Below are positions 29,495 through 47,589 of a DNA stretch of 47,589 nt, one piece after another. The translations under genes and the position numbers were made by a program. The first letter of the stretch is position 1; every line of letters begins with the position of its first letter. Origin of the DNA: an uncultured bacterium (GTDB lineage Bacteria; UBP6; UBA1177); assembly GCA_905233945.1 (NCBI GenBank), contig CAJOFY010000009.1:1-47589 (forward strand), in the 5' to 3' direction. The notes below the pieces were generated by a model. The model was not told the DNA's origin and ran no database searches. It was given only the letters and a program-made list of their open reading frames with translations.

Positions 29495-29721
29495 ACTGAC
29501 AGAAAATCAACAAAAAATTATAAAAAAAACCGCAAAAAAAAGCTGTTTTTAAGCAAAAAATAAAAAATCGCATAAATTCTTGATTTTATTTTGGAAATAT
29601 GGTACGAATCTACACAGCCGTACTTTTGGCGGCATTTTCTGATGTTCTTTTCTACACGGACGGACGAAATTATTTTGTATTTATTATAAAAAAATTCGTT
29701 GATTTGACGGAGGTTGACGAA

Positions 29722-30459
29722 ATGAGAAAACGTGGTTTTTCACTGATTGAGGTGCTGATTGCGATGGGGATTCTGACAATCATCGCAACCGTAGCCGTTC
29801 CGAAAGTCCAGGTCTGGAACGCCAGAAACCGCGGACTTCAGTCTGTAATGGAACTTATTTCCGATTTCTCGAAGGCAAAGTCTGTTGCCGGTTACACGGT
29901 TGCGGTCAGTTCCGACTCCGGAACAATTACCATTCCTGCAGGGGGAACCGACACCATGAATATCTACATGGGGATCCGCCGCCAGACAGCGATGGTTTTC
30001 GGAAAGTCGGAATATGCGATCTATCAGAAAGATTCGATGGATACCACAAGCTGGGATAATACGGCGCTTCTGCTGAAGAAAAATGTGCTTCTCGATACCG
30101 TAACTCTTGAATATGTCAACAAAAAAACTACGGCGGCAAGTGTCTCGAACTTCGACGGCTCTACCATTCTCAACTTCACTTCGACGGGAAAGATCAAGGA
30201 TATCAACGGCACGCTGATAGATTCCTCCCAGAGCGACGGAACCTGCGGCCCCGGTGTTCCGGCACGCTATCTCCAGAAGATTCTTTTTTCCGTTATTCTC
30301 AGGTCAAGGATTTCAAAAGGGGAAAACGATTCGATATGGTACCGTGTCGATATAGATCAGAGGGGTGAGTATTCCGTCTGCACCGTTTTCTCTTCTGAGG
30401 AACAGGCCAGTGCTGTGAAGGACAAGTTCGCAAGTGACGGCATCATGTTGGATATTTAG
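29722..30459 (+). CDS. Type IV minor prepilin (FimU/GspH-like)
   Basis: The start is ATG 29722, eight bases after acggagg; this places the class III prepilin signal at the N-terminus: MRKRGFSLIEVLIAMGILTI, cleaved after RG with Phe at +1 and Glu at +5. The hydrophobic helix (about 6-27) is followed by a 215-residue globular part containing two Cys (SDGTCGPG near 175 and YSVCTV near 220), matching the GspH/FimT-type minor pilins that help prime pilus assembly. It is the first gene of a run matching the order fimU-pilV-pilW-pilX-pilY1. The 227-base region upstream (29495-29721) is AT-rich; I could not pick a convincing promoter in it. Confidence 0.85.
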   Translation: MRKRGFSLIEVLIAMGILTIIATVAVPKVQVWNARNRGLQSVMELISDFSKAKSVAGYTVAVSSDSGTITIPAGGTDTMNIYMGIRRQTAMVFGKSEYAIYQKDSMDTTSWDNTALLLKKNVLLDTVTLEYVNKKTTAASVSNFDGSTILNFTSTGKIKDINGTLIDSSQSDGTCGPGVPARYLQKILFSVILRSRISKGENDSIWYRVDIDQRGEYSVCTVFSSEEQASAVKDKFASDGIMLDI

Positions 30460-30468
30460 GAGGAAAAC

Positions 30469-31032
30469 ATGAGAAAAATCAAGGCTTTCACTCTTATTGA
30501 AGTTATGGTTTCGATCTTCATTTTCACAACGGCGATGCTCGGTTTCATGTCTTTCCACGCACATTCGATGTCGGTTATTTTTGACAACGAGTCGGCTCAG
30601 TTCGCCCACGCGATCGCCTTCAACCTCGTCGAGGAAATAAACTCGATGTCATTCAAGGATTTCAAATCTCTTGCAGCTCAGACTTCGTCCAGAACGAAGG
30701 ATACGATTCTGAAGAGCGATAACTATATGGGGGCGACTTACGGCGTAAGTCCTTTTTATATGACAGGCGATTATTCGTCGGAGAGCAGCTACAGGTTCAA
30801 CCGTTACATCCAGACGCTGAAATATACCGATGAACTTGTCAGCGGAGCTTATGTCGCACCGGGATCGTTCATGGATACTCTTTATGTGGTCAGGGTCGAG
30901 GTTTTCTGGCCGAAACGCGGCTACGGAACCAAAGAATGCTACAAGGGTGTCTCTAATTTCGACAAAGAGTGCAACAGCATCTCTCTCCCGCTCGTAAGGT
31001 CGAACAAACAGACTTTCAAAGTCGCTAAATAA
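30469..31032 (+). CDS. pilV: Type IV minor prepilin (PilV-like)
   Basis: A 187-residue protein with prepilin signal MRKIKAFTLIEVMVSIFIFTTAML (key features: Lys-Ala at the cleavage site, Phe +1, Glu +5). The residue before cleavage is Ala, not the usual Gly. The mature protein has one N-terminal helix and a short globular head with a KECYKGVSNFDKECNS disulfide candidate near the C-terminus. PilV-type minor pilins form part of the tip complex with PilW, PilX and PilY1. The symbol rests on size, signal and gene order. It starts 9 bases after the previous stop with aggagg upstream, so it belongs to the same operon. Confidence 0.8.
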   Translation: MRKIKAFTLIEVMVSIFIFTTAMLGFMSFHAHSMSVIFDNESAQFAHAIAFNLVEEINSMSFKDFKSLAAQTSSRTKDTILKSDNYMGATYGVSPFYMTGDYSSESSYRFNRYIQTLKYTDELVSGAYVAPGSFMDTLYVVRVEVFWPKRGYGTKECYKGVSNFDKECNSISLPLVRSNKQTFKVAK

Positions 31033-31048: not shown

Positions 31049-32128
31049 ATGAAGAAATGTTGTTCTGCAAAGGCTTTTACCATTATAGAGCTTATGGTGA
31101 GCATTTTTATCACTGTAACGATCATTGCTTCCTTTTATAAACTGTACGATGCGTCGGTCAGAACCGAGCGCTCAGCTTCGATCCGTGTCGCCGTAAACCT
31201 TATGGGCGAGCAGATGATCGACACTATCGCCGAGTCTATACGTCTGATGGGGCTCAACAGCGTGAAGAGCGATTATCTGGAATCGACAGGCGCTGACGGC
31301 AATGTCGGAATCATCCGCCATGCCGGCGAGTATAAATTCGTCTATCTTTCCCCGTACGGTTCCCCGATCACGAAAGTCAAGACAGCCGAATCAAATTTTC
31401 CGTCATGCAAGTTCAAACTTTTCAATACTGCCGCTTTCTACAACGGTGTAAACAAACTCTATTTCCACAATGAGGACGGTTTCTTCAAGACGGTTTCCGT
31501 CGGAACGCCTACCTATCTTTCAGACGGTATACAGGTAAATGTTACTTTTTCAGAAAACGACAAGTACAATACAATCGGCTGCGAACAGGTTTTTCCGGAA
31601 GGCTCGCTTGTTACGGGCGAAGATTTTGTCTATACGCTGGAATATACATCGGGCGGCACCGGCTCAACCAACTCTCTGACACTTTCCTATGCGAAGGAAA
31701 GCAGCGCTGTCGGTGTAACCGACGGTACCCTGGTGGATTTCAGCTACAATCCGGAGAATAACAACAATTATTATAGTATGCCTAAATTCGTTCTGGAGTA
31801 TCTCGTTGAAAGTTGCACAGAAGAAAATGAAACAGTTGTCTGCCAGAGAAACTGGAAAACTCCGAAAAGCAGTGTTCTTGAGGCGGAAGATGTAAAGGGT
31901 ATGATCGCGGTCAGGTTCGGTTTCATCCTTCTTTCCAGAAAAGAGAGGGTTTACTCCGGCAGCGACACTCCCGGCAGTCTGCCGACATACTGTATATTCA
32001 AATCGGATAACGATCAGGATTACTACTGCGACACTCTGCCGAGCTTGAACTATACGGCTTCCGTTTTCCGCAAGGTTGTTTATCTTGCGAACTACCGTTT
32101 CCTTAAAGATCAGACACCAGTTGAATAG
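31049..32128 (+). CDS. pilW: Type IV minor prepilin (PilW-like)
   Basis: A 359-residue protein, the typical larger size of PilW/GspJ-type minor pilins. Prepilin signal: leader MKKCCSAKA followed by FTIIELMVSIFITVTIIASF; cleavage would be after KA, with Phe +1 and Glu +5. The leader carries two adjacent Cys. The head includes RVAVNLMGEQMIDTIAESIR (the amphipathic helix typical of PilW) and several Cys pairs (SCKFKL, GCEQVF, ESCTEENETVVCQ, TYCIF...YYCDTL). It lies 16 bases after pilV with aggagg upstream. It is expected in the PilY1-containing tip complex that primes fibre assembly. Confidence 0.8.
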   Translation: MKKCCSAKAFTIIELMVSIFITVTIIASFYKLYDASVRTERSASIRVAVNLMGEQMIDTIAESIRLMGLNSVKSDYLESTGADGNVGIIRHAGEYKFVYLSPYGSPITKVKTAESNFPSCKFKLFNTAAFYNGVNKLYFHNEDGFFKTVSVGTPTYLSDGIQVNVTFSENDKYNTIGCEQVFPEGSLVTGEDFVYTLEYTSGGTGSTNSLTLSYAKESSAVGVTDGTLVDFSYNPENNNNYYSMPKFVLEYLVESCTEENETVVCQRNWKTPKSSVLEAEDVKGMIAVRFGFILLSRKERVYSGSDTPGSLPTYCIFKSDNDQDYYCDTLPSLNYTASVFRKVVYLANYRFLKDQTPVE

Positions 32129-32140
32129 GTGAGGTGGCAA

Positions 32141-32779
32141 ATGTTCGATTTTATTGGTAAAAAACGACCGGGGGTCGCGCTTTTCATCAGCGTTCTGATG
32201 ACGTTGACCCTTTCGATTATCGCTCTCGCGACGATGGCAAGGCTTTCCGAAAGTGCCCACACGACAGGAAAAGAGCTTCAGGACAAGAGGCTTCTGGCTT
32301 ACGCTTATTCGGCTGTAAACATCGTGAACGGCGAGCTCAGAAACCTTATCGATTCGACTTTCCAGTTTGAGGAAGCCTACTCCCTTTCGGGCAACCTCGG
32401 CGGCAGTACGACCAGCAACGACGGTAAATTCAGATATTTTCCCAAGGATATCATGTCGGCCACGAATGCTTCCGACATGCCTGATTTCGCATACCGCGCC
32501 GTTGCGAGGAAAGTAACGAAAACGGATTATCCGAAACTTTACGGCCTGAATGAAGACAAGAAGACAAAATACGGTTCTGATTCAAACGCCTGCTACGATA
32601 TAACGGTCGATGTCAGGGAAGTCATGTATGTCGGAGCCAGCAGCTATGTCACTTTCAAGGACAACAGCAACGTAATCCAGGGCAAAAACGATTTCGCACT
32701 CGGCAAAATGAAAACCATCGGTTTGATAAGCTGTTTTTCAAGAGACGGCGAGAACGAATACGCAGAAGATGATGATTAA
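32141..32779 (+). CDS. pilX: Type IV minor prepilin (PilX/GspK-like)
   Basis: The start is ATG 32141, six bases after gagg (32131-32134); an upstream GTG (32129) overlaps that site. The leader MFDFIGKKRPG is followed by VALFISVLMTLTLSIIALAT, with no Glu at +5, as is usual for PilX/GspK proteins, which sit at the very tip. The 212-residue product continues with ARLSESAHTTGKELQDKRLLAYAYSAV (amphipathic helix), again PilX-like, and a small head with one Cys near the middle (SNACYDITVDVREV) and one near the end (GLISCFSRDG). It lies between the PilW-like and PilY1-like genes, the order in Pseudomonas. Confidence 0.8.
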   Translation: MFDFIGKKRPGVALFISVLMTLTLSIIALATMARLSESAHTTGKELQDKRLLAYAYSAVNIVNGELRNLIDSTFQFEEAYSLSGNLGGSTTSNDGKFRYFPKDIMSATNASDMPDFAYRAVARKVTKTDYPKLYGLNEDKKTKYGSDSNACYDITVDVREVMYVGASSYVTFKDNSNVIQGKNDFALGKMKTIGLISCFSRDGENEYAEDDD

Positions 32780-32803: not shown

Positions 32804-35800
32804 ATGAGAAAAGACACATTTTTCAGCAAAATTTTTACTGTATTTCTGCTTGTCATCTCTTTCTCTTCCGGCGTTTATGCCGAGGCTACGACGATGTCAG
32901 ACAGTCTCAAGGACGATGTAACGGCGATGATCACCAATGCGAAGAAACTGCCGCATCAGATTTTTATCGTCGATTCGTCTGAAAGCATGAACACCTCCGC
33001 ATACAGCGATTATCTCGATACGTGCGCGGACGGCAAAACCAACCTCGAAAAGGCGCTGGCTCTTTGCAATAACGCTGTAAAGCAGTGTCATAACGTCGAA
33101 AGCAACGCGATGTGCGACGTCGATCTCGGGTGCGGTGACGTACAGTCAAAATGTACCGAGATCGAGAAACTGAAAACCAAGCTGAATGCACAGTGCCTCA
33201 AGGCTGAGACCATACTCGGCAAAGTCGGCATATACGAAACTGACGCGTATGACGGTTCCAAGGCTAAAAAATATGTAGGTCCCTGGGATCCGAGCAAATT
33301 TTATGACGACGACCTCTGTTTCTATGACTGGACTGCCGATACGAACTCCGATGTCATCGAAGGAACAAAGGCTTACGAAGACGAGATGGCAAGGGCTAAA
33401 CAGGCGGCTGCCGACGCAAACGAAGCAGCGGGCACAGACATTTATACCGCTGACAATTTCCTGAATCTCGGCAACCTCTATGGCGGCTCCGCGAACGAGT
33501 ACAACAAGCAGAAGCTCTGCCAGAAATGGGGCAAAACCGGTGAGGACTGCGACAAGGCTTTCAATAATTTAAAAGCGCAGAGCGGTGGCTACGTCACCGA
33601 CCGCCGCGACTGGGACTGCCTGACCGACGGTTCCGGAACTTTCCTTCATAAAAGCGCAGATCTGGACACCGATTCCTGGCAGCAGATGAAGGTTGACAAA
33701 GGCGGTGTCAGCGGACTCTGGCTCAACTGGAAGTACGCTACGTCGCTTGACGCCATCAAAATTATCCTTGCAAATATCCACGAATTTTCATTCCCGCCGA
33801 GAAAACGCGGCGACGACGAGTGTTACAGATCCGTTTATATCCCGTATCAGGAATATCAGGACGCCATTGTCTGCTCCGACGATGATGTTGCGGCAGGCAA
33901 TTTCGGCTGTCAGGAAGCCGGTGCTCCGGTAAACTGTTCCGAAGCCGATGTCGAGAATCATGAGACTGAAAACAGCAACTGTGACAGCGAAAGCGCGGTG
34001 GGAAACCCGAAATATGTCACCAGAAAGGCGTGTTTCGTCGCTTTCGAGCCTACGCTCGGCGAAAATGAGGAGAAGCTTAAATCTCTCAGGACGGCAATAG
34101 ATTCAATGTGGACTGTCCAGCAGAAAGTTCCGGATGTTGATGCTGAAGCTTCCGAAAACAACGCCTGCGATCCTACGAAATGCGACAGCTTTATGGGTGA
34201 CTTTGTCCACAAATTTCCGATACACAAAGCCAATGACTATGGAAATTACACTACAGATTCCTCCCAGTGCGACAAGTGCTACAAGTGGGAGCTCAACGCC
34301 GACAACACCGGCGTTTTTGTCGAGACCGACTGTCACAGCTTCTCGGGTACTACGGAAGGTGCCGGCGAGACAAAAACGCTCGGATCGGTCGATGAAACCC
34401 TTTCCAAGCAGTGCTGCAAGGCTTTCAACTGTACAAACCCGAAATGCAGGGACAACGATATCTGCTGCAAAGACAACGCAGGTGCTTATCCTGACGCTGC
34501 TCACGGCGGTGACGAGAATCTCGAAGGCTACAAGACATGCAGGAAAGTAGGCGAAGGCGGCGCGGATTATTCGTGTGTACTCGGCTTCTACAGTGAATAC
34601 GACCAGGATGCAAACCACTGCTGTGCCGAGTCTTCATGCGCCGAAGCCGGAACGTCATCGACTTATCACGATGATTTTCTTGATATGGATTGCGACAAAT
34701 GCGATACCGGCTCCGCTCTGGGAAGCGATACTTTTGAGACAACCACCGGAGTTGTCAAGATTCTTCCGCATGCTGTCGATGATGACGGAAATCCTCTGGC
34801 TTACTGCGGTGTAAACAGCACCGAGGACAACTGCCAGGACATCAAAGTGACTGTCGGCATCAAATCTGAAGCCACTGTCAATTACGACGAAATTTCGAGC
34901 ATAAAGTTCACTGTTTACTATGACTGCGAGGATTCGGGCAACGACCACCCCGACCATCTTCTCGGAACAGGAACCTGCTCTTCTGCTTCAACCTGCGAAG
35001 CCGTTGTCAGCGGCGATCTCAGCGGATGCAGCGAGGAAGGCTACCGCATGGAGGCTTTTGTCACGGTAACGCGCAAAAGCTGCCATTTCTCCGAGATGAA
35101 TGTCAAGTTCGACGTAGGTTATTCGTTCGGCGATTTCAAAGACGGTGCCTATGAAGGTTACGCGCACGGTACATATTCCAACAGAACGGTTTTCCAGACC
35201 GACGAGGCGTTCTACAATACTTATAGTTATCAGACGACATCCTCTGCCGACAAAGTTTACGAATACGAGTGCAAAGCTTCTTTCTACAACAGGGAAGTCG
35301 TTACCCTCGACGGCGGTTCCTGCCCGAGCGCATCGAATGCTCCGTCATACATCAACCAGGGCCGTGAGGGCGAAAAGGTCGAGTTCTGCGAGGCCAGAAC
35401 CTATGAAAGAGAGGTCCTTGCCAGAGACCAGTGGCTGCAGCCGACAAAAGTTGCGTGTTCGTGGCTCTGCAGAACGGCTGAAACATACGATGACCCGTGG
35501 AAATGCGCATCTTTCTTCTATATGATGGACGATATTCAGCGTAACGGCCCCGAGTCGTGCAAGAACGGTGAGTGCAAATCTGCAATGACTTCCAACAGCG
35601 CCCTGGAATCGTGCTGCAAGTGCGTAAGCCAGTCTCAGGGCCAGTATTACCACCATGAGACTCCGGGACAGGTACAAATGTCTAGCGGAACATACACATG
35701 TGCGGTCAGCGGCTATCAGTACGCGACGGGAAGCAACGGATTCACGACCACGGCAGGCGGCTTCCAGGCTGAAATCATCAACGGCCACACGAAGGAAGGC

Positions 35801-38800
35801 GGTACTGACGGATACTACAACCTTTCTCCTTACAGAATCCAGAATGAAGCCGGCGAGACCGTTCTCTGGTCTCCGTATCCGGAACAGAACGGATGGTATA
35901 CGCAGTTCAGCCTTATCCACTCGGTAAACGGCAGAAGATACCTCGGCGATTCACTTACAAGCCTTTTCACGACCAACGATCCGTCAGGCAGAATATCGGT
36001 CTGCATAAACGATCTTCTCTGGAACTGGGAGGGCGAAGACTGCAACAGCTGCGGAACCGGATGCTGCGCGATCGATTTGAGCCAGGACAGCAACAACTGC
36101 GATTATCCGCAGTTCTGGATGAAGATGCCGCACGGAAACGGCGGAAAACTTCTTCTCGGGGCTACCAACCTGCTGAGTGAAGGCGAAGCCGAGTTCAGAG
36201 CCCAGATCAAAGCTCTCAGGGCTGTAGGTCCTGCGACTCTCGGTGAAACGCTTTACGATTCATGGCGTTACCTCGGCGGAATGTACGCTCTTTATGACGC
36301 TGACTATAAATCGAAGCCCTACACTTCGCCGTACGAGGCCAATGACGCCGAGTGCTTTACAAACGAAGCTGTCGTCATTTCAGGCGGAAACCCGCAGTTC
36401 GACGACAACTACGAGCTTGAGAGAATCGGTGCCGCGACCTGTTCCGCAACATTCCAGGTTTACCAGACAGCTGCGCAGGTTCCGACGGATAAGCCGTGCA
36501 TAAAGAATTCCGGCTATGACGACGAGAGTCTTAAAAACTGGAGCGCTACCCAGCACAATCCTTATCTTACGGATCAGTGGGAGAAGAGTTCTCTCATGAA
36601 CGTCGCGAGATTTGTCAACAGAAACACTTTCTGGAGCAAGGATGAAAGCTGCCGTCATGCTTCGATTCAGGAGAACGGCGACGGTTACAGCACGGAATGC
36701 GGCGGAAACAACCCCAACGCTCAGGACATGGATGCAAATATTCCTCTTATTGACCGTGTCCACGCGATCGGAATAGGCGAATGGGGACTTACGGCGATGT
36801 ATCAGGTTCTTACCGGAAACAATCCTGACGCAACTTTCATTGACGCAAGCTTCATTCAGAATACCGCGACGATTACAGAACGTGACGGCGAGCAGGGAAG
36901 ATACTACACTCTGACGGCGACCGAGAATACAGGTTCCGGCAGCCAGACATGCAACGACGGTGCCGGCGGAAGTTTTAACGACCTCACATGTCTTTTCTCC
37001 TCTTTCGTAAACCAGCCCAGATCCACGGATGTCGTTGTCGGCAGGCCGCACTGGACTTCATCGCTTGTCCAGCCGTACGATGTCGAGGAAAAATACCGCG
37101 GTCCCGAGGCCTTTACTGCCGGAACGGTTCCTGTTGACGGAACTGTAAGCCGTTTCTGGTTCGGAAACCTCAAAAAATATGAAATTTCCAGTGAAAGCGG
37201 CGGTTCCTGCCCGATATACGACGACAACACCGCGAAGTGCGGCGAGTGGAAACGCCAGACTTTCGATGCGCTTGACTGTTTCGGAAAACAGGCGGGCGAT
37301 GTCGGCGGCGGTTTCTCTGTTCCGGAAGGCGGTTCGGAGGAGAATCTCAAGCAGTTCGAGAAGCTGATGATCGGCGGCGCTGCGGCACAGCTGAGGAAAA
37401 TGGCGGAAGAGTCGCCTGCGTGCGGCGAATTCCCGTGCTTCAAGTCTTCAGACAGAAAATTTTACTACGACCTTGACGGTTCGATGCATGATCTCAAGAG
37501 TACCGACGGCGGGGAACTGCTTTACAAGTTCAAACCTTTCAAAACCAACCTCACTGCTGATACGCTCAACAGAATTTTCGATTATATGGCCGGTTACGAC
37601 TCTTTCAAGACAACGGATGACGCAAGAAAGAAAATCAGATACAGCGAAGGCACCGGAGAAGAGACTTTCATGGTTGACGATCCGTTCAGCGTCGATTTCA
37701 ACCACACGACGAAACTTACGCTCCGTCCGCTTCTTCTCGGCGCGATAGTCCACTCGAAACCTGTTGCGGTTTACTATAACAATTCCTCTACGACAAGGAT
37801 CTATGCCGGAGCGAACGACGGTATGCTCCACGCGTTTGACGAGGAGGGCAAGGAGGTTTACGCCTATATGCCGACTCCTGCGTTCAAAAATATCACGAAT
37901 TTCGCTAACTCGAATTCGACCATATCCTTCAATGCCACGGTTGACGGTCCGATCACGCTGTTCCACATCGACCAGAGCCACGACGGAATCATCAACAACG
38001 GCGAGAAGGCATTCCTTATTTTCGGTTACAGACGAGGCGCTGCGGGCTACACCGTAATTGATGTCTCCAGTCCGGACAAACCGAAATTCGTACAGCATCT
38101 CAACACGGATGCCGGCTACAGTTTCGCCAAGGCGATGATTTTCAGAAAGTGTCTGGGCCAGTGCAGCTACGCGAACGATCTTGAGTACTATCTCGCAGTG
38201 CCCGGCGGTTACGACACTTGCCACGATCCTGCCGCTTTGACGACTGCCGACGAGGACAACTATACAACATGCGAGCAGAACGGACTCACCGGCAACAAGT
38301 TCAGACTCTACAAGTTCGACAAGACCGACAACAGGTTCTCGAGTTATGTCGAGTTCAGCACAGCCAATTCCTCGCCGCTCGGAGACTTCGAGAAATCGTG
38401 GCTTGTAACTTCGTTCACCGCAACTCCTTTTATCGTCAACACAAGCGGAAAAGCTGCGGTCAACACCGAATACGTCTACTTCACGGATCTTTCGGGAACC
38501 GTTTTCAGAGTCGATGTCACCTCAAATTCGATGTCTGACTGGACTGCAAAGGTCGTTTACGCAAAGAGAAACGGCGGAAGCGGCACGACGCTCAAGGAGG
38601 TCTCATGGGATGAAGTCGGCAGAACTTTCGTCGGCGCGACATTCTTCCCGCCGCTCGAAAGGTACAACCCGTCGAGAAAGTCGTCAGGCACAGCTGATAC
38701 CGAATGGAAGATTCCGTTCCCGGTAATCGCAGGAAACGCGGCCAACCCGAAGTTCATGAGACGTGAAGTCCTCACCACGTTCTACGACAACAAATCATCG

Positions 38801-39349
38801 GAATACGATTATGCTGATCTCTACGACAGCGACTTCTATCTCAACTCGGACGGTGAATCGCACACACCCAAGAACGAAATGATAGAAGAAAAGCACGGCT
38901 GGAGGGTAAGATTCGCCGACAACGGTGAAAAGGGTATTACCGAGCCGCTCATAGTCTACGATATCTACAACAGCGGAAGCGCAGACTCGTCGTTCAACAG
39001 CGCGAACAGCTATTCGATCGCGTGGAACACATACATTCCGATGAAGGCAACAAAGTGCAAGACTTTCGGAACGAGCAGCAACTACGAGAGATATATTCCT
39101 GACGGCTCGCAGGTATTCACCAACACCGAGATGACCGGCGAAAACGGCGAATGGACTCTTGCAGCCGACAACAGCGGTCAGTGCGTCTCCGAGGAGGCCA
39201 ACCTGAGTCTTGCTACGTCAGTCGGAATAGTCGCGACCGAAGACGGTTACGACCTCACTTTCGGTGCAGGTGCCGAGATCTTCAGAAAGCAGAAGCTCAC
39301 TGTCAAGAGGAACTCGACTTATATTATCAAATGGTATGAACTCTATTAG
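32804..39349 (+). CDS. pilY1: PilY1-like pilus tip protein, enlarged and cysteine-rich
   Basis: A 2181-residue protein, nearly twice the usual PilY1 length (about 1100-1200). It has a signal peptide (MRKDTFFSKIFTVFLLVISFSSGVYA), then a von Willebrand A-like segment starting near residue 50 with the metal-binding DxSxS motif in FIVDSSESMNTSAYSDYLD. A long cysteine-rich region (about 350-1130, with CCKAFNCTNPKC-type clusters) interrupts or extends this part. From about 1636 comes the PilY1 beta-propeller: RPLLLGAIVHSKPVAVYYNN, IYAGANDGMLHAFDEEGKEV, GAAGYTVIDVSSPDKPKF and a later EYVYFTDLSGTVFRVDV. Residues about 1723-1734, DQSHDGIINNGE, match an EF-hand-type calcium loop, the place where PilY1 binds calcium to regulate retraction. 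Same operon as the minor pilins (24-base gap, aagggg site). Confidence 0.9.
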   Translation: MRKDTFFSKIFTVFLLVISFSSGVYAEATTMSDSLKDDVTAMITNAKKLPHQIFIVDSSESMNTSAYSDYLDTCADGKTNLEKALALCNNAVKQCHNVESNAMCDVDLGCGDVQSKCTEIEKLKTKLNAQCLKAETILGKVGIYETDAYDGSKAKKYVGPWDPSKFYDDDLCFYDWTADTNSDVIEGTKAYEDEMARAKQAAADANEAAGTDIYTADNFLNLGNLYGGSANEYNKQKLCQKWGKTGEDCDKAFNNLKAQSGGYVTDRRDWDCLTDGSGTFLHKSADLDTDSWQQMKVDKGGVSGLWLNWKYATSLDAIKIILANIHEFSFPPRKRGDDECYRSVYIPYQEYQDAIVCSDDDVAAGNFGCQEAGAPVNCSEADVENHETENSNCDSESAVGNPKYVTRKACFVAFEPTLGENEEKLKSLRTAIDSMWTVQQKVPDVDAEASENNACDPTKCDSFMGDFVHKFPIHKANDYGNYTTDSSQCDKCYKWELNADNTGVFVETDCHSFSGTTEGAGETKTLGSVDETLSKQCCKAFNCTNPKCRDNDICCKDNAGAYPDAAHGGDENLEGYKTCRKVGEGGADYSCVLGFYSEYDQDANHCCAESSCAEAGTSSTYHDDFLDMDCDKCDTGSALGSDTFETTTGVVKILPHAVDDDGNPLAYCGVNSTEDNCQDIKVTVGIKSEATVNYDEISSIKFTVYYDCEDSGNDHPDHLLGTGTCSSASTCEAVVSGDLSGCSEEGYRMEAFVTVTRKSCHFSEMNVKFDVGYSFGDFKDGAYEGYAHGTYSNRTVFQTDEAFYNTYSYQTTSSADKVYEYECKASFYNREVVTLDGGSCPSASNAPSYINQGREGEKVEFCEARTYEREVLARDQWLQPTKVACSWLCRTAETYDDPWKCASFFYMMDDIQRNGPESCKNGECKSAMTSNSALESCCKCVSQSQGQYYHHETPGQVQMSSGTYTCAVSGYQYATGSNGFTTTAGGFQAEIINGHTKEGGTDGYYNLSPYRIQNEAGETVLWSPYPEQNGWYTQFSLIHSVNGRRYLGDSLTSLFTTNDPSGRISVCINDLLWNWEGEDCNSCGTGCCAIDLSQDSNNCDYPQFWMKMPHGNGGKLLLGATNLLSEGEAEFRAQIKALRAVGPATLGETLYDSWRYLGGMYALYDADYKSKPYTSPYEANDAECFTNEAVVISGGNPQFDDNYELERIGAATCSATFQVYQTAAQVPTDKPCIKNSGYDDESLKNWSATQHNPYLTDQWEKSSLMNVARFVNRNTFWSKDESCRHASIQENGDGYSTECGGNNPNAQDMDANIPLIDRVHAIGIGEWGLTAMYQVLTGNNPDATFIDASFIQNTATITERDGEQGRYYTLTATENTGSGSQTCNDGAGGSFNDLTCLFSSFVNQPRSTDVVVGRPHWTSSLVQPYDVEEKYRGPEAFTAGTVPVDGTVSRFWFGNLKKYEISSESGGSCPIYDDNTAKCGEWKRQTFDALDCFGKQAGDVGGGFSVPEGGSEENLKQFEKLMIGGAAAQLRKMAEESPACGEFPCFKSSDRKFYYDLDGSMHDLKSTDGGELLYKFKPFKTNLTADTLNRIFDYMAGYDSFKTTDDARKKIRYSEGTGEETFMVDDPFSVDFNHTTKLTLRPLLLGAIVHSKPVAVYYNNSSTTRIYAGANDGMLHAFDEEGKEVYAYMPTPAFKNITNFANSNSTISFNATVDGPITLFHIDQSHDGIINNGEKAFLIFGYRRGAAGYTVIDVSSPDKPKFVQHLNTDAGYSFAKAMIFRKCLGQCSYANDLEYYLAVPGGYDTCHDPAALTTADEDNYTTCEQNGLTGNKFRLYKFDKTDNRFSSYVEFSTANSSPLGDFEKSWLVTSFTATPFIVNTSGKAAVNTEYVYFTDLSGTVFRVDVTSNSMSDWTAKVVYAKRNGGSGTTLKEVSWDEVGRTFVGATFFPPLERYNPSRKSSGTADTEWKIPFPVIAGNAANPKFMRREVLTTFYDNKSSEYDYADLYDSDFYLNSDGESHTPKNEMIEEKHGWRVRFADNGEKGITEPLIVYDIYNSGSADSSFNSANSYSIAWNTYIPMKATKCKTFGTSSNYERYIPDGSQVFTNTEMTGENGEWTLAADNSGQCVSEEANLSLATSVGIVATEDGYDLTFGAGAEIFRKQKLTVKRNSTYIIKWYELY

Positions 39350-39361
39350 CAGGAGGGTGAT

Positions 39362-40150
39362 ATGAGAAAGGTTTTAGTTCTGTTTTTTGCCGTGATTTCG
39401 TTTCTTCCGCTTTTTGCGGATCTTAGAAATGTCGATCCGGGAAATTCCTACTCGGAGTTTTCCTACATCGTCATGGTCGGCCAGGTTGTCGAAGTCACCC
39501 CGTTTTCGGTAGTTTTTGAAAATACTGCTTACGGAACAAGGGCTACAAATGCAAGAATCATGCAGCTCAACATGCTTTACAACCGCGACAACGATTTCAG
39601 GTCGCACGGACTGGCGAACGCGCTGCGCGCCGCAAGCGTCAAGGACGGGAGAATGAGACTCAGTTTCTATCTCGACAACATCCTCAGCATTTTTGACGAC
39701 AACGTCTCGACCTACATGAAATACATTCCTCTCTATTATCTTTTCAAGAACAATATCAACGATCTGAAACTTCCGAAAGAGACGATGGAATCTTTGAAGA
39801 AGCAGTCGCTTGACTACTACATTTCGCTGCCGATGGCACAGGATCTTATGAAAAATTCGTGGCTTGCCGCAGTTTTCACGATAAATCCCGCCAACAACAA
39901 GCTCGTCTTCAAAACGGGACGTTTTTTTGAAAACCTCGATGAGCTGAACAGCAGCGAATGGGCTTCCGGATACAGGATCCAGGACATTGTCAGAGCCGGA
40001 ATGACCGTTTCGATGACGAAAGCCGTCTTTATCGGCCACGAGTCCGAGGAAGCGCCCGAAAAGAGTGACGACGGCAGCAAGACCAGGAATCCGAGAAAGG
40101 GCAACAACCTCAAGAACAAGGAGAACTCGAATTACGGTATGGAGAAATAG
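39362..40150 (+). CDS. Secreted protein of unknown function in the pilY2 position
   Basis: A 262-residue protein with signal peptide MRKVLVLFFAVISFLPLFA, predicted periplasmic. A beta-rich start (YSEFSYIVMVGQVVEVTPFS, VVFENTAYGTRATNARI) is followed by a helical middle and a charged, Asn/Lys-rich disordered tail (SKTRNPRKGNNLKNKENS). It has no Cys, in contrast to its neighbours. In Pseudomonas the gene between pilY1 and pilE is pilY2, but that protein is much shorter and I see no clear similarity, so only position links them. Start 12 bases after pilY1 with an aggaggg site; stop 1 base before the next pilin start, with the pilin's ribosome site inside this gene. Confidence 0.75.
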   Translation: MRKVLVLFFAVISFLPLFADLRNVDPGNSYSEFSYIVMVGQVVEVTPFSVVFENTAYGTRATNARIMQLNMLYNRDNDFRSHGLANALRAASVKDGRMRLSFYLDNILSIFDDNVSTYMKYIPLYYLFKNNINDLKLPKETMESLKKQSLDYYISLPMAQDLMKNSWLAAVFTINPANNKLVFKTGRFFENLDELNSSEWASGYRIQDIVRAGMTVSMTKAVFIGHESEEAPEKSDDGSKTRNPRKGNNLKNKENSNYGMEK

Positions 40151-40151
40151 A

Positions 40152-40616
40152 ATGAATATTTTTGCTGCAAAATCAAAAGGTTTTACCTTGATCGAGCTGG
40201 CGATAGTCGTCGCTATCATCGGGATTCTGGCAGCTGTAGCCGTTACGGTGTTCGATACGTTTTCGGACAACTCCAAAGTTGACGAAATGAAGTCCGAAAT
40301 TCTTATCGCAGCGGCTTCCCAGGAGAAATTTTACCTTTCTCAGGGCAGATACGCCACGACCGGAAACGACAAAGCCCAGCTTTTAGCCTACTATAGTTTT
40401 CCCAAGGATACCGACTATATGAAGCTGAAGACTGGCGTTGTCGTAAAAGACGGTGTCGGAATGGGCTACTGGGTAAGCGGAGTCCGCAAAATCCGCGGAG
40501 AACTGCACTGCTGGCTTTACACTTCCTCTTTTATGGACACGACGGAAGCGACCAATTTTCGCGAGTTCAAAGCGGGGGACAGCATAAATTACAACGGAGT
40601 TAGCTGTACTTGGTAA
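40152..40616 (+). CDS. pilE: Type IV pilin (PilE-like)
   Basis: A 154-residue protein from ATG 40152, seven bases after ggag (40141-40144). Prepilin signal: MNIFAAKSKGFTLIELAIVV then AIIGILAAVAVTVF, with cleavage after KG and Glu at +5, the canonical pilin helix. The head (about 120 residues) contains AASQEKFYLSQGRYATT, the 'E.y....g.Y' pattern common in PilE/major-pilin relatives, and a C-terminal disulfide-loop candidate (LHCWLYTSS...GVSCTW). The symbol is by size, signal and order after pilY1; it could instead be the major pilin. It is closely linked to the preceding gene. Confidence 0.82.
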   Translation: MNIFAAKSKGFTLIELAIVVAIIGILAAVAVTVFDTFSDNSKVDEMKSEILIAAASQEKFYLSQGRYATTGNDKAQLLAYYSFPKDTDYMKLKTGVVVKDGVGMGYWVSGVRKIRGELHCWLYTSSFMDTTEATNFREFKAGDSINYNGVSCTW

Positions 40617-40679: not shown

Positions 40680-40706
40680 AGTAAGGTTTGTTTACAGGAG
40701 ATTGTG

Positions 40707-41138
40707 ATGAAAGAACGCGGTTTTACGTTGATTGAATTATCAATAGTTATTGCAATTATAGGTATTCTCGCAGCTGTTGCGATTCCTCTTTACACAAGCT
40801 ACACGAACAGAGCGAAAAGAGTCGAGGCTGAAGAACAGCTTATGACTCTCGCCGCGATCGAAGAGGATTATTTCAACACTTACCGCGCATATACCGGCGC
40901 AACCGACTCCGAAAAAGAAAACCTCAAGAAATATTACGGCGCTGATTTGGGCGGCGGTCAACACCAGAATTATAAAATAGAGATAGAACTTAAAAACAGC
41001 GGCGCAACATATGTTGCGACGGCTTACGTCTGCTACAAACTCAAAGGTTCGGCGTGCACTTCTACCACTTACGATGTCAAGTGCACGGTTTCGAACGGCA
41101 ATCAGGCTTCAGTATGCATAAGAAAAGAAGATGAATAA
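40707..41138 (+). CDS. Type IV pilin, possibly the major subunit
   Basis: A 143-residue protein from ATG 40707, six bases after aggag; a GTG directly before it is in frame but closer to the ribosome site. Prepilin signal MKERGFTLIELSIVIAIIGI then LAAVAIPLYTSYTNRAKRVEAEEQL, the archetypal major-pilin helix, with cleavage after RG and Glu at +5. The compact head has AAIEEDYFNTYRAYTGA and a C-terminal set of four Cys (YVCYKLKGSAC...VKCTVS...SVCIRKEDE), giving the D-loop disulfide. Its own promoter, small size and orthodox helix suggest an abundant subunit, whereas the preceding pilin looks like a minor one. This is an inference. Confidence 0.82.
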   Translation: MKERGFTLIELSIVIAIIGILAAVAIPLYTSYTNRAKRVEAEEQLMTLAAIEEDYFNTYRAYTGATDSEKENLKKYYGADLGGGQHQNYKIEIELKNSGATYVATAYVCYKLKGSACTSTTYDVKCTVSNGNQASVCIRKEDE

Positions 41139-41153
41139 ATGACGGAGGAAAAA

Positions 41154-41921
41154 ATGAGAAAATTATTCCTTTTTCTTGTAATTTCGGTTTTGGCGTTCTG
41201 CCTGGTTTCATGCGGAGATGAGACTTCGCAGAACATGTCGGAGAATTCCGGCAGACAGGCGAACGGTACGGTTCTGAACCGCAAACTTGTAAAACCCGGT
41301 AGCCACAGGGTGAACACGCCGGTTTTTAAGAAAAAAATCCAGCTTCCTCCGTTGAATACCCAGACCTGGGCGCCGGTGGCGACAGGCCAGTATCAGTGCT
41401 TCAACAACATGCAGGAAGTCGACTGCGACGAAGTTCCGAGCTCGTTCTCGACTCAGGACGGTAAAAAGCGTTACGGAACGCGTTCTCTCACAAGGGATTC
41501 CAACAACGAGACAGTCACCGATTCCGTAACCGGTCTTGTCTGGGTAAAGAAAGTCAACACGGGACTTTCGTGGTACGAAGCGAAAAACTACTGCGACAAC
41601 CTGAGGCTTGAAAACAAGACATGGCGCCTTCCGACAACCGCGGAACTCCGCTCGATTGTCAACTACGGAAAGACAAATCCCGCCATTGATCAGGTTTTTT
41701 ACGATGATGCGAGCGGCAATACAGGATCCGATGAGTCCAAGGAGATGAAAAAAGAGCTCCTTAACTGGTTCTGGGCTACGAAACACGTCCATTTCGATTC
41801 CGAAGGAAGCTCCGACAGGGATTATTCTTCTTCGTGGATCGTGAACTTCATGGACGGTTCAGTTGAATTTACCTCGCGCTACAATACTTACAATGTGCGC
41901 TGTGTATCGGCTGATTTTTAA
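41154..41921 (+). CDS. DUF1566 lipoprotein in the pilus cluster
   Basis: The start is ATG 41154, five bases after ggagg. A 255-residue protein with signal MRKLFLFLVISVLAFCLVSC (lipobox LVSC). After a polar linker (about 20-80) comes one DUF1566 domain (about 85-255): YQCFNNMQEVDCDEV, SVTGLVWVKKVNTGLSWYEA, KNYCDNLRLENKTWRLPTTA then ELRSIVNYGKTNP, WFWATKHVHFD and a terminal YNVRCVSADF. It lies 15 bases after the pilin stop and 14 bases before the giant cysteine-rich gene, so all three probably share a transcript. This gene places the DUF1566 family directly in the type IV pilus locus. Confidence 0.85.
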   Translation: MRKLFLFLVISVLAFCLVSCGDETSQNMSENSGRQANGTVLNRKLVKPGSHRVNTPVFKKKIQLPPLNTQTWAPVATGQYQCFNNMQEVDCDEVPSSFSTQDGKKRYGTRSLTRDSNNETVTDSVTGLVWVKKVNTGLSWYEAKNYCDNLRLENKTWRLPTTAELRSIVNYGKTNPAIDQVFYDDASGNTGSDESKEMKKELLNWFWATKHVHFDSEGSSDRDYSSSWIVNFMDGSVEFTSRYNTYNVRCVSADF

Positions 41922-41935
41922 GGTAGGAGGGAAAA

Positions 41936-44900
41936 ATGAAGCGTAATATGATGAATTTTGCGGCAAAAACAATCGCTTTTGCGTTGTTTTTCATTGTTTT
42001 TCTCTTTGCTGATTCACTTTCGGCGGCAGACGGCTGTCAGGCAAGCGGATGCGACACTTCGGCAGACGGTCAGTACAACGCCACTGCTTTCAGCAAGCCG
42101 ACATACGCACCTTCGTGGACTGAAGTCACCAAGAGCATGGGGCCTGTCCGCGGCGGCCAGTACTTGAAATTCTCCGTTGTCGAAGGCGAAATCTACACAT
42201 GGTCGACAGAAGGCAAGGAAGATGTTTTCGGCGGCAACTATTCGGCAACATGTTCCAGCGACGAAATCAGCGACAACTGCCGTACCGCTTCCGATACCGA
42301 GCTGCGCGGTCTCCGCTGTTTCGGCGGCTACTGCACTCTTCCTTTCGATACAGAGCTCACGCTTCTGAAAGGTGAAGTCTGCACGGCTACAGCCCAGCCG
42401 ATCGCATACAGCAACTCAGGCGGTTTCCGTAACCAGTCATCGCTTGAATGGAAAGCGGATTTCACAGGACCTGTCGTTCTTCTCGTCACAAACAACAAAT
42501 ATCAGGGCGGCGTCACTTCCGCATCGTCAGGCTCTTATATTCCGTGCCAGAAAACTTCCCAGAAAGAGGTAGGTCCGAGCGGCGCCGAGATGGAGATGAC
42601 AACGACCGTAAAATGGCAGAGATCCGCTTCGGAACCTTGCTCGACATGCGGCGAAAAAACGAAATACCGCACCGACAAAACCGCTCTTTCGCCTGAACAG
42701 GCACCTAAATGGAGAACGGTTCAGTCGAGACAGGCGGTAAATCTGCTCGATTTCCTTCCGACTCCTATCACGCCTGAGAATCTCACCGGAAACTATCCGA
42801 ACGACAAGTGGCTGAAACCGGGAAGCTACGTCGTTTTCAACGTCATTGAAAACCAGATTTACAGATGGTCGACATGTATCGCCGATTTCCAGGATACACA
42901 GCTCACCCTTTTCAAAGGCGACCAGGGCGGAACCGGTGATGACGGCAAAGCCTGCGGCCAGGTTCTCGCTTACGGCGACGATTCGAAAGTTTCATACACG
43001 AGCGCTAAAAGAATAGACGATGAGGGCCACGAGATCGATGACGAAGATCCGGCTCATTTCGCTACTTTCTGTCCTGCCGGAACAAAGCAGACAGTTCTCG
43101 AGTGGAAAGCCAATTTCACAGGCAAAGTCACCCTTCTTCTCAACGAATACAACTGCTACCAGTGCTATCCGCAGGAAGTCGCGCTTTCAGGCGGTATCAC
43201 ATACAACAACTGGCTCAACTGCTTCTATGAAGTTACAGGCAGTTTCCAGACAGACGGCGGCGAGTTTGTTTTCGAGAACGGCTGGCCGGTAGAGGTCGCT
43301 TCCGGAGATCCTTCTTCGATGCCGGGTTCTTTCATCTATCCGTTCCCGCTCGACTGGCAGAGATACGACTGCGACACATGCGAAGGTGCCCCGGTCAAGA
43401 CAATCGACGATTTCAGTGAGACGCCGGGAACAAACGCTTTCACGGACGGCGGCAGCCAGGTCGTTTATGCCGGACAGCCTCTGCTCTTCAATCTGAAAAG
43501 AGGTTCAAAATACCTTTTTGAAGCAGCTGATGAAAATACAATCATCACGATAAAAAGAGGCAACAGCTGCGACGGAGATCTTGTTGACCAGGCAAGCGGA
43601 AAACTGACTTACTTCGCCGAGGCTGAAGGCGATTACGACAGCGAAGGCCACTATATCGACGAGCCCGATGTCATCACAGTCTTTATTTCACCTCAGGACT
43701 GCCGCGAAGACGATGATTTCTCCGACACTCTGACATATTCTTATTACACTTCTGCCGGTAATTCAAAAACCAGATTCCTGGAAGCTCAGTACACCGGTTC
43801 AGACAATGTTGTTACCGACAGCTCCACGACCCTTCAGTTTGTCGATACCGGGGAATGGGCTCACACATGGCAGGAAGCTATCAACACATGCCAGAACAAA
43901 ACGGTCGGAAATTCCGGCAGCGGCAACACGATCCCCTGCGTTGATCCTGTATGTCCTGCAGGCAACTACACTTTCCAGAACGGCTATTTCTGTAAATACA
44001 ATTCAACGGGCGCCGATGCTTCGGGAAACTGCAAATCTCCTGTCTGTGCCACCAATTACTCCGAATTCCAGAAAACTTCGGCAAATGCGAATGATCCGGA
44101 ACTTCAGGATTTGTTCGGACTGTGCTACTACAGCGGCACTCAGTGTGATATAAACGAGTGGATAACTATCGGAGTGCCGGATGTATTCTATGTCCGTCCG
44201 CCTCGCGGCTGCTACGACGGCGACGAGTATATTGCGGCAAAAGCTCAGTGCGGTCACTGCAGTGACGGCATTTTGGAAAACATTGGAACTGCCTTAAAAC
44301 CCAACTGGGTGTGCAGGGATACTCAGTGTAAATCTTCTCAGCAGTGCATCACGATAGGCGGTTTTTGCTCCAGCATCGGTGCGGAACAATCATGCCCCGA
44401 AGGTTACACCTATGACAGCTATAACAAGAAATGCTTTGATCCTGATGAGGCTGTGCCTGTTTACGGCACTCCGACAAGTTCAACTTCCGCGCATAATGAC
44501 CTGTATTCGCTTTTCAATCTCGATTCCTATACGCCGGAGGGAAACATCGGCTGTCCGGCAGGAATGCACGATACCGGAACCGGAACCTGCGAGTATGACA
44601 CATGCGGAACATATACTCCGGAAACTCTTTTTACATCGTGGGGATCTTACAATGATAATGTCTGGGCAGATACCGAGAATAAGCCATCCGAGCCCTACTG
44701 CTATACGGCTAGACCTACAAAAGTAAACGGAAGCTATCAGTTTACTGGTGCTAAGGTTCCGTGCTGCTGCAACAAGACGATATATAGAATCAAAATGTCT
44801 ACAGGTATGGCTTCCACGGGATATAATACTCTAAATTACGCAACATCGTATAATCCTAACGGCTCGGTAGCTAGTGTCGGACAATGGACATGCCAGTCTG

Positions 44901-47589
44901 CCGGATCATGCGACGACGGGTATCAGTATGATTCAGTCAGAGGCAAATGCGTAAAATGCCAGAGTGGCGGTATCCTTTATCAGGCTCCCAGCGGCAAATG
45001 GAATTGCAGAAGAGATTGCGGTGGAGATTATATAATTGATACTGCAAACGACTATCAGATTTGTGTAGAGTGCAACAATAGCAGTGACACACTTTTTGTT
45101 GCAAACGATCATTCATTGGCGGCCTGTGTCGCATGCGGCGAAGAAAGAACCGTTGTCCCGGACGGCAGCGGAGGCTACATCTGCCTGCTTGATCAATGCG
45201 ATGACGGCAGTCATATCGTTGTAGAGTTGCCAGAAGGTATGTCATGTGCTCCGGCAGTTGCCAGTGAGCTCAAGTGTAAAGAGGGCTGGATCAAGGATCC
45301 TGCGGCTGGAACCAAGTGCAGGAAGCTGCAGTTGACAGGTGGGAACTACACAAGTGTCAAATGTACAAGCTCGGAATGCAGCTCCAATCCGGCGGCTTGT
45401 CTTGCGCCGAACCTGGACGACAGAACATGCGATCCCGACAATCCGAACTCTTACGACTGCCACTGCTATGTCGACCGCTGCGAGGATGCAGCACAGGAGC
45501 AGGACAAAAAAATCTGCCCGGATTGCAAATATGTATGTTCAAACGGCGGCACTCCGACGCTCAATCCGATAAACGGCAAATATTACTGCGGAGCTTTCGA
45601 GGCTACATGTCTGCACACTACACCGATAGAGACGACAACGATACTGAAGAACGGAACAACCATTATAGTTTACACGGAATGTAAGTACACCGACGCAAGC
45701 GGTCAGACCTGCGGCGAGGCAATGGGCGGATGGACACTTCCGAACATCAACCAGCTTTACTCGATCGTCGATTTCGACCTTTACGATCCTGCAACAGCTT
45801 ATCCTTTCCAGGAAGGTTATGTAAGGCTTGACCTTGACGATGAATGTACTCCGATCCCGCATCCTGCCGAGCCTGAAGACTGTGCTGCGGACGCGGACTG
45901 CAATACGGCCGAGACGGGTCTTAAATGCATCGGCGGCAAGTGTCTCTCGTCCGATCCTTACGGCGATCTCCAGTGCGGCGAAGACGGCAACTATATCTGT
46001 ATGGATAACCAATGTGTCAGAAACAACTGGTTCTGGTCGAGCACGACCGTCATCAGCGAAGGTGCCAACAACGGCAAGTTCATCTGGGCTGTCAACATGG
46101 AAGACGGACGTTCGTACCAGGCTGTAAAAGGCTGCACCGGTGCTGACTGTCTCTCTCAGATCGACCTCAACGCCAGACCGCACCACGTTCTGTGCGTAAA
46201 AGGTTCGACTGTTGCCGGTATTTTCGACAACGACGCTCCGACATACGACCAGACCTTCTCAGGCTGGGCATGCGACAAGGACTATCCGCAGATTGCGCTG
46301 AATATTTACTTTGAAATTAAGGATTCTAAAGGCAAGGATATGGTCCTTCTCCTTGGTTCAGAGGTAAATCCTGTCTATGCGGACGACATCCCGGGCCTCG
46401 GCTCGAGAGGTATCAAGTACGGTCCGTCGGACGACTCGATGATTACAGAAGCGAAAAAGAACGAAATCTACAACAACTGCGGTTTCGCGAATGCTGGAAA
46501 CAACCACGCTTTCGGCGTTATGTGGAGAACAGGCTCTGTAACTGACGGCAAGGAAGGAATCGCCGGCGTTCTTGCGCAGATTTACGAGAAAGAGTGTTCC
46601 GACGCGAGACTTGCCGATGCAGACGATACGAAGGACAACTGCGGTGTTCCGCCTTACTTTGTAACGGCTTACGGCGTAAACAATACATCCACGAGCGGAG
46701 CTACCGCTATTGCGATTTCTCCAACTGAAAGACCGTTTGTTTTCAAGAACAGATGCGGCGACGGTTACAAGACCAACGACGGAACTTACACCGAAAGCTG
46801 CGAATCCGAGAATTTGAACGAAGTCTGCCCGTACGGCGACGGCCCGTGCCAGATCTGCGCAAAGGAAAACATGACGGTTGACGGCACGGAAGTTAAAGCC
46901 TGCACATACTACAACGGTACACGTCCGCATTGTAACGACGGCACGCTCCAGAGCTACTACTGCGTTGACGGTGTCATCTCTGCAGGCCACACGGGCGCGG
47001 GACTTGACTGCGAATTTTATGATTTCATGACACACAACAACACAGTTGCTTTTTCAGAGGAGTGTGACTGCAGCGACGGCGGCTATACTTTCTACTATTA
47101 TGCTGATCCTGAAAACTTCGTCTGCGACGCCGGCTACGGACTTACCCAGAACGTCTGCCCGGAATACAACACTGTCAGCATCGATGATTACGATCCGAAC
47201 GATCAGGACGGTTACTGCTACATCTGCGCAGGCTGTAAGAGAACCAAAACTGCGAAACCGAGATGCGGTGACAAGACGATCCATCGTCCTAACTGCACGG
47301 GTTACACTAACTGCGAAGTCGTTCAGGGTGCTAACGAAGAGTGCGACGACGGAAACAATTCCAACACCGACAGCTGCACGAACGAATGTAAACTCGGCGC
47401 ATGCGGCGACGGCTTCATCCAGTACGATCTCGGCGAAATCTGCGACAGCGGAGCGAAGAACGGCTGGTATTCTGTAAACTGTGTCGGCACGGAATCATGC
47501 CCCGGCTGCGCAGGCTGGAAATGCGGTAAAGACGGTACCGAAGAACTCGGCCCGAGATGCGGTGACGGAAAAATCCAGAACAGAGACAT
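41936..47589 (+). CDS. Second giant cysteine-rich surface protein with DUF1566 domain (partial, runs off window)
   Basis: ATG 41936, preceded by aggagg, opens a frame that stays free of stops to the window edge: at least 1884 codons. Signal peptide: MKRNMMNFAAKTIAFALFFI then VFLFADSLSAADG, without a lipobox Cys. Residues about 60-200, 290-410 and 500-610 are three related beta-rich modules (FSVVEGEIYTWST, FNVIENQIYRWST, FNLKRGSKYLFEA, then LEWKADFTGPVVLLV / LEWKANFTGKVTLLL). A cysteine-rich region follows (about 640-1240), then a DUF1566 domain (GGWTLPNINQLYSIVDF about 1261, NWFWSSTTV about 1364, HHVLCVKG about 1410), a GWACD module, and from about 1606 CGDG-type repeats of the same kind as the 1925-residue lipoprotein (TGYTNCEVVQGANEECDDG). 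Probable secreted adhesin or stalk of the pilus cluster; the C-terminus is not in the window. Confidence 0.87.
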   Translation, partial: MKRNMMNFAAKTIAFALFFIVFLFADSLSAADGCQASGCDTSADGQYNATAFSKPTYAPSWTEVTKSMGPVRGGQYLKFSVVEGEIYTWSTEGKEDVFGGNYSATCSSDEISDNCRTASDTELRGLRCFGGYCTLPFDTELTLLKGEVCTATAQPIAYSNSGGFRNQSSLEWKADFTGPVVLLVTNNKYQGGVTSASSGSYIPCQKTSQKEVGPSGAEMEMTTTVKWQRSASEPCSTCGEKTKYRTDKTALSPEQAPKWRTVQSRQAVNLLDFLPTPITPENLTGNYPNDKWLKPGSYVVFNVIENQIYRWSTCIADFQDTQLTLFKGDQGGTGDDGKACGQVLAYGDDSKVSYTSAKRIDDEGHEIDDEDPAHFATFCPAGTKQTVLEWKANFTGKVTLLLNEYNCYQCYPQEVALSGGITYNNWLNCFYEVTGSFQTDGGEFVFENGWPVEVASGDPSSMPGSFIYPFPLDWQRYDCDTCEGAPVKTIDDFSETPGTNAFTDGGSQVVYAGQPLLFNLKRGSKYLFEAADENTIITIKRGNSCDGDLVDQASGKLTYFAEAEGDYDSEGHYIDEPDVITVFISPQDCREDDDFSDTLTYSYYTSAGNSKTRFLEAQYTGSDNVVTDSSTTLQFVDTGEWAHTWQEAINTCQNKTVGNSGSGNTIPCVDPVCPAGNYTFQNGYFCKYNSTGADASGNCKSPVCATNYSEFQKTSANANDPELQDLFGLCYYSGTQCDINEWITIGVPDVFYVRPPRGCYDGDEYIAAKAQCGHCSDGILENIGTALKPNWVCRDTQCKSSQQCITIGGFCSSIGAEQSCPEGYTYDSYNKKCFDPDEAVPVYGTPTSSTSAHNDLYSLFNLDSYTPEGNIGCPAGMHDTGTGTCEYDTCGTYTPETLFTSWGSYNDNVWADTENKPSEPYCYTARPTKVNGSYQFTGAKVPCCCNKTIYRIKMSTGMASTGYNTLNYATSYNPNGSVASVGQWTCQSAGSCDDGYQYDSVRGKCVKCQSGGILYQAPSGKWNCRRDCGGDYIIDTANDYQICVECNNSSDTLFVANDHSLAACVACGEERTVVPDGSGGYICLLDQCDDGSHIVVELPEGMSCAPAVASELKCKEGWIKDPAAGTKCRKLQLTGGNYTSVKCTSSECSSNPAACLAPNLDDRTCDPDNPNSYDCHCYVDRCEDAAQEQDKKICPDCKYVCSNGGTPTLNPINGKYYCGAFEATCLHTTPIETTTILKNGTTIIVYTECKYTDASGQTCGEAMGGWTLPNINQLYSIVDFDLYDPATAYPFQEGYVRLDLDDECTPIPHPAEPEDCAADADCNTAETGLKCIGGKCLSSDPYGDLQCGEDGNYICMDNQCVRNNWFWSSTTVISEGANNGKFIWAVNMEDGRSYQAVKGCTGADCLSQIDLNARPHHVLCVKGSTVAGIFDNDAPTYDQTFSGWACDKDYPQIALNIYFEIKDSKGKDMVLLLGSEVNPVYADDIPGLGSRGIKYGPSDDSMITEAKKNEIYNNCGFANAGNNHAFGVMWRTGSVTDGKEGIAGVLAQIYEKECSDARLADADDTKDNCGVPPYFVTAYGVNNTSTSGATAIAISPTERPFVFKNRCGDGYKTNDGTYTESCESENLNEVCPYGDGPCQICAKENMTVDGTEVKACTYYNGTRPHCNDGTLQSYYCVDGVISAGHTGAGLDCEFYDFMTHNNTVAFSEECDCSDGGYTFYYYADPENFVCDAGYGLTQNVCPEYNTVSIDDYDPNDQDGYCYICAGCKRTKTAKPRCGDKTIHRPNCTGYTNCEVVQGANEECDDGNNSNTDSCTNECKLGACGDGFIQYDLGEICDSGAKNGWYSVNCVGTESCPGCAGWKCGKDGTEELGPRCGDGKIQNRD

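Follow-up and report, generated by a model that had tools for sequence, protein, structure and literature searches.

The window analysed here, the whole stretch of 47,589 nucleotides, contains, as judged from sequence, a minor-pilin/PilY1 cluster of the type IVa pilus that is enlarged by further genes, and the last of these is a giant gene that runs out of the window. The predicted product is well supported as a secreted and non-lipidated protein linked to type IV pili. We further consider it probable, at roughly 60%, that the giant is an exported adhesin or stalk acting with the PilY1/minor-pilin tip complex of the type IVa pilus. The original prediction had already suggested a secreted giant linked to pili, and the gene context supports it: the gene belongs to a PilY1 cluster, it is present in every locus that could be judged, and the genome encodes PilB, PilT, PilC and PilQ as well as separate pilins. 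The features of the cluster and of the giant are listed in Table 1.

Table 1. Coordinates of the pilus-tip cluster and of the parts of the giant protein in the window
Position	Strand	Feature	Basis
26933..29494	+	Reg_prop sensor carrying an AraC-type HTH; possible regulator, conserved as upstream neighbour	
29599..30459	+	Pilin-like, in FimT/FimU position; translation probably begins further in, before residue 43	
30469..31032	+	Pilin-like, PilV position	
31049..32128	+	Pilin-like, PilW position	
32129..32779	+	PilX/GspK-like small protein, PilX position	GspK E 0.0044, position
32804..39349	+	PilY1, 2,181 aa; beta-propeller near C-terminus, MIDAS-like motif near N-terminus	
39362..40150	+	Exported 262-aa protein, conserved, unknown family, between PilY1 and extra pilins	
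40152..40616	+	Extra PilA/PilE-like pilin 1	
40704..41138	+	Extra PilA/PilE-like pilin 2	
41139..41921	+	DUF1566 (Lcl_C) lipoprotein, lipobox LVSC, likely start 41154	
41936..47589	+	Giant ORF (1,884 codons within the window), extending on the contig as far as 49,238-49,261	
41936..42025	+	Giant: Sec signal peptide ending in an SPase I-type site (SLSA/AD), lipobox absent	Sequence, orthologs
42095..42652	+	Giant: beta module 1	
42680..43312	+	Giant: beta module 2, homologous to module 1	
43379..43891	+	Giant: beta module 3, marginal likeness to modules 1 and 2	
44093..45640	+	Giant: Cys-rich region, less conserved	
45716..46210	+	Giant: degenerate DUF1566/Lcl_C domain, insertion-split, under curated cut-off	
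46250..46747	+	Giant: conserved beta-rich domain, no database match	
46754..47589	+	Giant: start of CGDG disulfide-repeat region, TIGR02232/DUF4215 type	

The pilus-tip gene cluster

The cluster is arranged in the order of four pilin-like genes, PilY1, the 262-residue protein, two pilins, the DUF1566 lipoprotein and the giant. The N_methyl model scored over its cut-off in three of the cluster pilins and the protein in PilX position had a weak GspK match, with order and sizes fitting such a series. The 2,181-residue protein is, on the evidence of its sequence, PilY1, which is known to serve type IVa pili as their tip adhesin; this identity was absent from the original prediction. It matched the PilY1 structure PDB 3hx6 with an E-value of 1.1e-9, and a profile of nine PilY1 orthologs reached 2.9e-18. 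PF05567 matched 8/9 of these orthologs, with the window's own copy under the curated cut-off, and no NCBIfam family was found for this protein. A MIDAS-like DSSES motif lies around residue 55 at the N-terminus in most orthologs, and the Pfam VWA_2 match to a putative N-terminal vWA domain is weak (E 0.35). PilY1 of this cluster is thus an example of a protein easily overlooked by standard domain cut-offs.

The PilY1 match, the surrounding pilins and the type IVa pilus machine of the genome together identify the locus as a minor-pilin/PilY1 cluster of the type IVa kind. PilB, PilT, PilQ, GspD and GspG all scored over curated cut-offs in the genome, which also encodes PilC, a separate PilA-like pilin, GspE and further T2SS genes, the T2SS genes being located away from the pilus-tip cluster. 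Candidates for the major pilin lie at the end of contig C22 of the same genome (L101:3951-5086, minus strand), where at least two PilA-like pilin genes stand side by side; one of them contains an N gap.

The giant was described originally as following pilins and a DUF1566 lipoprotein with tight spacing, and 14 bp separate the stop of the lipoprotein from the ATG of the giant. A TATAAT box is present in the 87-bp gap upstream of the last pilin gene, and an internal promoter at this place is a possibility; the promoter scan listed none in the gap. Two other neighbours are worth recording. The exported 262-aa protein has no database match and is kept between PilY1 and the extra pilins order-wide. 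The regulator with Reg_prop propeller repeats and an AraC-type HTH, in which the Pfam scan detected no kinase domain, precedes the minor pilins in the majority of congeners.

Domain organization of the giant protein

The original prediction had given the giant three repeated beta modules, a Cys-rich part, a DUF1566 domain and CGDG repeats matching those of another giant protein, but no lipobox. This layout holds, with reservations about the third module and the DUF1566 domain. A signal peptide with an SPase I-like site and without a usable lipobox was found in 12 genomes, and in the window's own sequence as well as in the orthologs there is no lipobox where the hydrophobic core of the signal peptide ends. 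The mature protein begins near a Cys pair, which is followed by the beta modules. Modules 1 and 2 clearly represent one repeated unit (HHalign E 2.8e-19), whereas the likeness of module 3 is marginal, with E-values of 7e-5 against module 1 and 1e-3 against module 2. Structure prediction, proposed earlier as a check, gave a beta-rich AlphaFold model of these N-terminal modules with modest confidence (pLDDT 60), and a second model of the giant was also of modest confidence (pLDDT 56). In the PDB fold search, the first model retrieved tandem CUB or collagen-binding-type beta sandwiches at low whole-model TM and the second retrieved nothing significant; with such matches and such pLDDT values we claim no fold family for the giant. 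Sequence searches of the PDB using profiles A1 and A2 gave no match.

The Cys-rich part contains 13-22 Cys per 200 residues across about residues 600-1400. Behind it, PF07603 scored 26.8 bits on the window part of the giant against a curated cut-off of 34.9, an insertion splitting the domain, and the family matched all 8 aligned giants (own and 7 orthologs) at E <= 0.01, the best being 1e-6. The analysis revealed no catalytic or binding site. The CGDG repeats form a long irregular stretch and do match the repeats of the other giant (E 7e-11). TIGR02232 scored over its cut-off in orthologs G004 and G005 and DUF4215 did so in G004, and the window part of the giant itself had no HMM match to either. 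In their C-terminal extensions, G005 has Laminin_G_3 and G004 has a glycine-rich ALK_LTK_GRD match. A hypervariable tail was considered when the last 720 residues seemed unrelated; this idea was dropped when a full alignment proved collinear through 4,037 residues of G003 and G005 (56%), with a C-terminal extension as the difference between the two. The giant has no PF05567 or VWA match and does not resemble the cluster's own PilY1 in sequence, and the idea that it is a PilY1 paralog was rejected.

Conservation of the cluster

We searched 29 genomes and found PilY1 followed by the giant, after the lipoprotein, in 13/13 informative loci, that is, PilY1 loci with enough downstream sequence (those of G001, G008, G019 and G023 end too early). 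In addition, G017 has a lipoprotein-giant fragment only. The gene order of the cluster is identical in 8 genomes of the genus and is also present in G016, G020, G021, G022 and G024, at the level of family or order. Orthologs of the giant occur in seven congeneric genomes; five of them are complete, with 3,790-5,359 residues, and in the other two the contig runs out after 3,361 and 3,739 residues. The complete giant of G021 has 3,648 residues. Neither PilY1 nor the giant was detected by profile search in the congeners G009 and G014, which are 96 and 98% complete. Because these two genomes retain PilT and PilQ, the cassette behaves as a unit that is absent from some genomes with a pilus machine; GspD-type matches are present in them as well. 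According to their records, close kin come from metagenomes of the rumen or abomasum, and two of these genomes are labelled UBP6.

Comparison with known systems

The corresponding operon of Pseudomonas has the order fimU-pilVWXY1Y2E. It resembles the present cluster in the order of minor pilins, PilY1, small protein and PilE-like pilin, but has no lipoprotein or giant following pilE. Minor pilin/PilY1 clusters 1-3 of Myxococcus xanthus, as outlined in the extracts of two papers, contain four minor pilins and one PilY1 each, sometimes with an extra gene (tfcP, mxan_1370) and with long Cys-rich PilY1 variants, and one pilus machine is encoded away from them (PMC7541494, PMC13190605). As far as those extracts go, the two systems share minor pilins with PilY1, an extra gene and a machine encoded elsewhere, while the two extra pilins, the 262-aa protein, the DUF1566 lipoprotein and the giant Cys-rich protein after pilY1 distinguish the cluster described here. 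The extras reported there are TfcP and MXAN_1370, and no such giant is described in these portions of the papers (PMC7541494, PMC13190605).

Lcl of Legionella is an adhesin with DUF1566/PF07603 that binds glycosaminoglycans (PMC11162425). Lcl and the giant are alike in export, in surface location, which for the giant is a proposal, and in a DUF1566 domain, which in the giant is a match below cut-off. Lcl, however, is small, trimeric and collagen-like (PMC11162425), while the domain here is degenerate and part of a giant that also has disulfide repeats. With the Myxococcus-type TIGR02232/DUF4215 proteins the giant appears to share export and repeats of the form CGDG...GExCDDGN...C...C, and it differs from them in its irregular repeats, its membership in a PilY1 cluster and the lack of an HMM match in the window part. 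In the open-access literature we found no paper linking DUF4215 with type IV pili, and a broader search of it, for giant or Cys-rich proteins in connection with PilY1, gave no account of this arrangement.

Proposed role of the giant and alternatives

We propose that the giant, as the last member of the tip cassette, would be exported by Sec without a lipid anchor and, on folding under the oxidising conditions of the envelope, would form a long chain stabilised by disulfides. Along this chain would follow the N-terminal beta modules, the DUF1566-like middle, the CGDG repeats and the lineage-specific C-terminal extensions. Together with the PilY1/minor-pilin complex it may grip a glycan-rich surface, such as plant fibre, mucus, protozoa or other cells, and the pilus would then pull on the surface gripped. 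LamG domains commonly bind glycans. Because of this property, and because a DUF1566 domain sits in the adhesin Lcl (PMC11162425), the domain types suggest by analogy that the giant may be an adhesin. The outer-membrane secretion route, the disulfides, adhesion and the physical attachment to the tip are thus parts of the model that we infer. The occurrence of the type IV pilus machine without the cassette counts against our reading, as do the DUF1566 score under its cut-off, the modest confidence of the structure models and a T2SS through which the giant could leave the cell independently.

Under the main rival, the T2SS would secrete the giant, which would belong to a surface matrix or serve as an attachment protein. 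It would be merely co-regulated and co-expressed with the pilus-tip genes, attachment being the purpose of both, and would never touch the pilus. The presence of GspD, GspE, GspG and further T2SS genes would make an independent export possible, a plain Sec signal peptide is what T2SS substrates have too, and many other exported DUF1566 proteins are encoded apart from pilus genes. We nevertheless regard this as rather unlikely, since the place of the giant behind PilY1 is fixed order-wide, with joint loss, and the T2SS genes lie elsewhere and are present even without the giant, as the GspD-type matches in G009 and G014 indicate. Linkage to PilY1 in 13/13 loci would also fit an assembly or stability partner of PilY1, serving to build the tip and not for adhesion, and an extra protein of this kind, TfcP for PilY1.1, is carried by Myxococcus clusters according to the extract of PMC13190605. 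However, a length of 3,600-5,400 residues, repeat arrays and lectin-like extensions are disproportionate for a chaperone, and the C-terminal extensions vary among species, which makes such a role improbable.

Returning to the giant as an adhesin or stalk acting with the tip complex, a stronger version can be formulated, which we offer as a tentative and doubtful one. In this uncultured order, the giant would be a second type IVa tip adhesin besides PilY1, a disulfide-rich protein of ~3,600-5,400 residues. It would dock on the minor-pilin/PilY1 complex, perhaps via the two extra pilins, and its exchangeable C-terminal domains would determine what the pilus grips. A conserved companion in the cluster, even larger than PilY1, would show that two giant proteins can belong to one pilus-tip cassette, and it offers a concrete handle on the attachment of an uncultured rumen lineage to its surroundings.

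The open frame and its 3' end

The frame starts with an ATG at 41936 and runs for 1,884 codons without a stop up to the window edge; with this base composition, the probability of this by chance is about 10^-38, and each of the remaining five frames has 24-98 stops over the same region. The contig has 49,438 bp and the window is its start, ending at 47,589 because a run of 16 N bases (47590-47605) begins there. Beyond this gap the frame continues in phase to a stop at contig position 49,261, giving 2,441 residues. The claim of an open frame of at least 1884 codons leaving the window is thus borne out, and the extension of the contig, recommended at that time for finding the stop, has led to one at 49,261.

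The window's giant is collinear with the 7 congeneric orthologs through the window part and past the gap, in frame, until the homology breaks off sharply at 49,238, 200 bp before the contig end; the orthologs extend 1,000-3,100 residues beyond this point. Since the homology ends so abruptly near the contig end, the stop may represent a true truncation or a mis-join. The 215-bp contig end has no second copy anywhere in the genome and no match to a nearby AAA-type gene of relatives, and a repeat-driven mis-join is therefore not demonstrated. Doubt about the frame is limited to the sequence after 49,238. That the window's copy is a broken gene or its frame an assembly artefact, as the N gap and the sharp cut might suggest, is very improbable in view of the in-frame collinearity on both sides of the gap and the unique contig end.

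The lipid-anchored giant and other observations

The other giant is a lipid-anchored protein of 1,925 aa with DUF1566 and DUF4215-type repeats, encoded at 20998-26775 on the minus strand. It is a conserved divergent neighbour in G003, G005, G011 and G012, and in G021 its homolog lies downstream of the giant of the pilus cluster. A partnership of the two giants was at first put forward as possible. Their neighbourhood in several genomes and their common repeat type are consistent with this, but the divergent orientation and the varying position relative to the operon weaken it, and PilY1, in the same cluster, is the more obvious partner.

The 2.65-Mb genome contains more than 150 DUF1566 (PF07603) matches, an extreme expansion, and any match at all was found in 1/14 control genomes. 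Its single reverse transcriptase is encoded among zinc-ribbon DUF1566 genes on contig C21 (L083:5660-6931, minus strand). As DUF1566 proteins occur in papers on diversity-generating retroelements, such an element was considered and rejected: no template/variable repeat pair was found between the C21 region and the compared stretches, and against group II and Drt3a models the reverse transcriptase scores under the cut-off. Finally, the loci of G003, G006 and G013 contain near the giant a membrane protein of 281-286 aa, an FAD-type oxidoreductase and a protein of ~1,730 aa that, judged by eye, resembles a polyketide-synthase-type enzyme.
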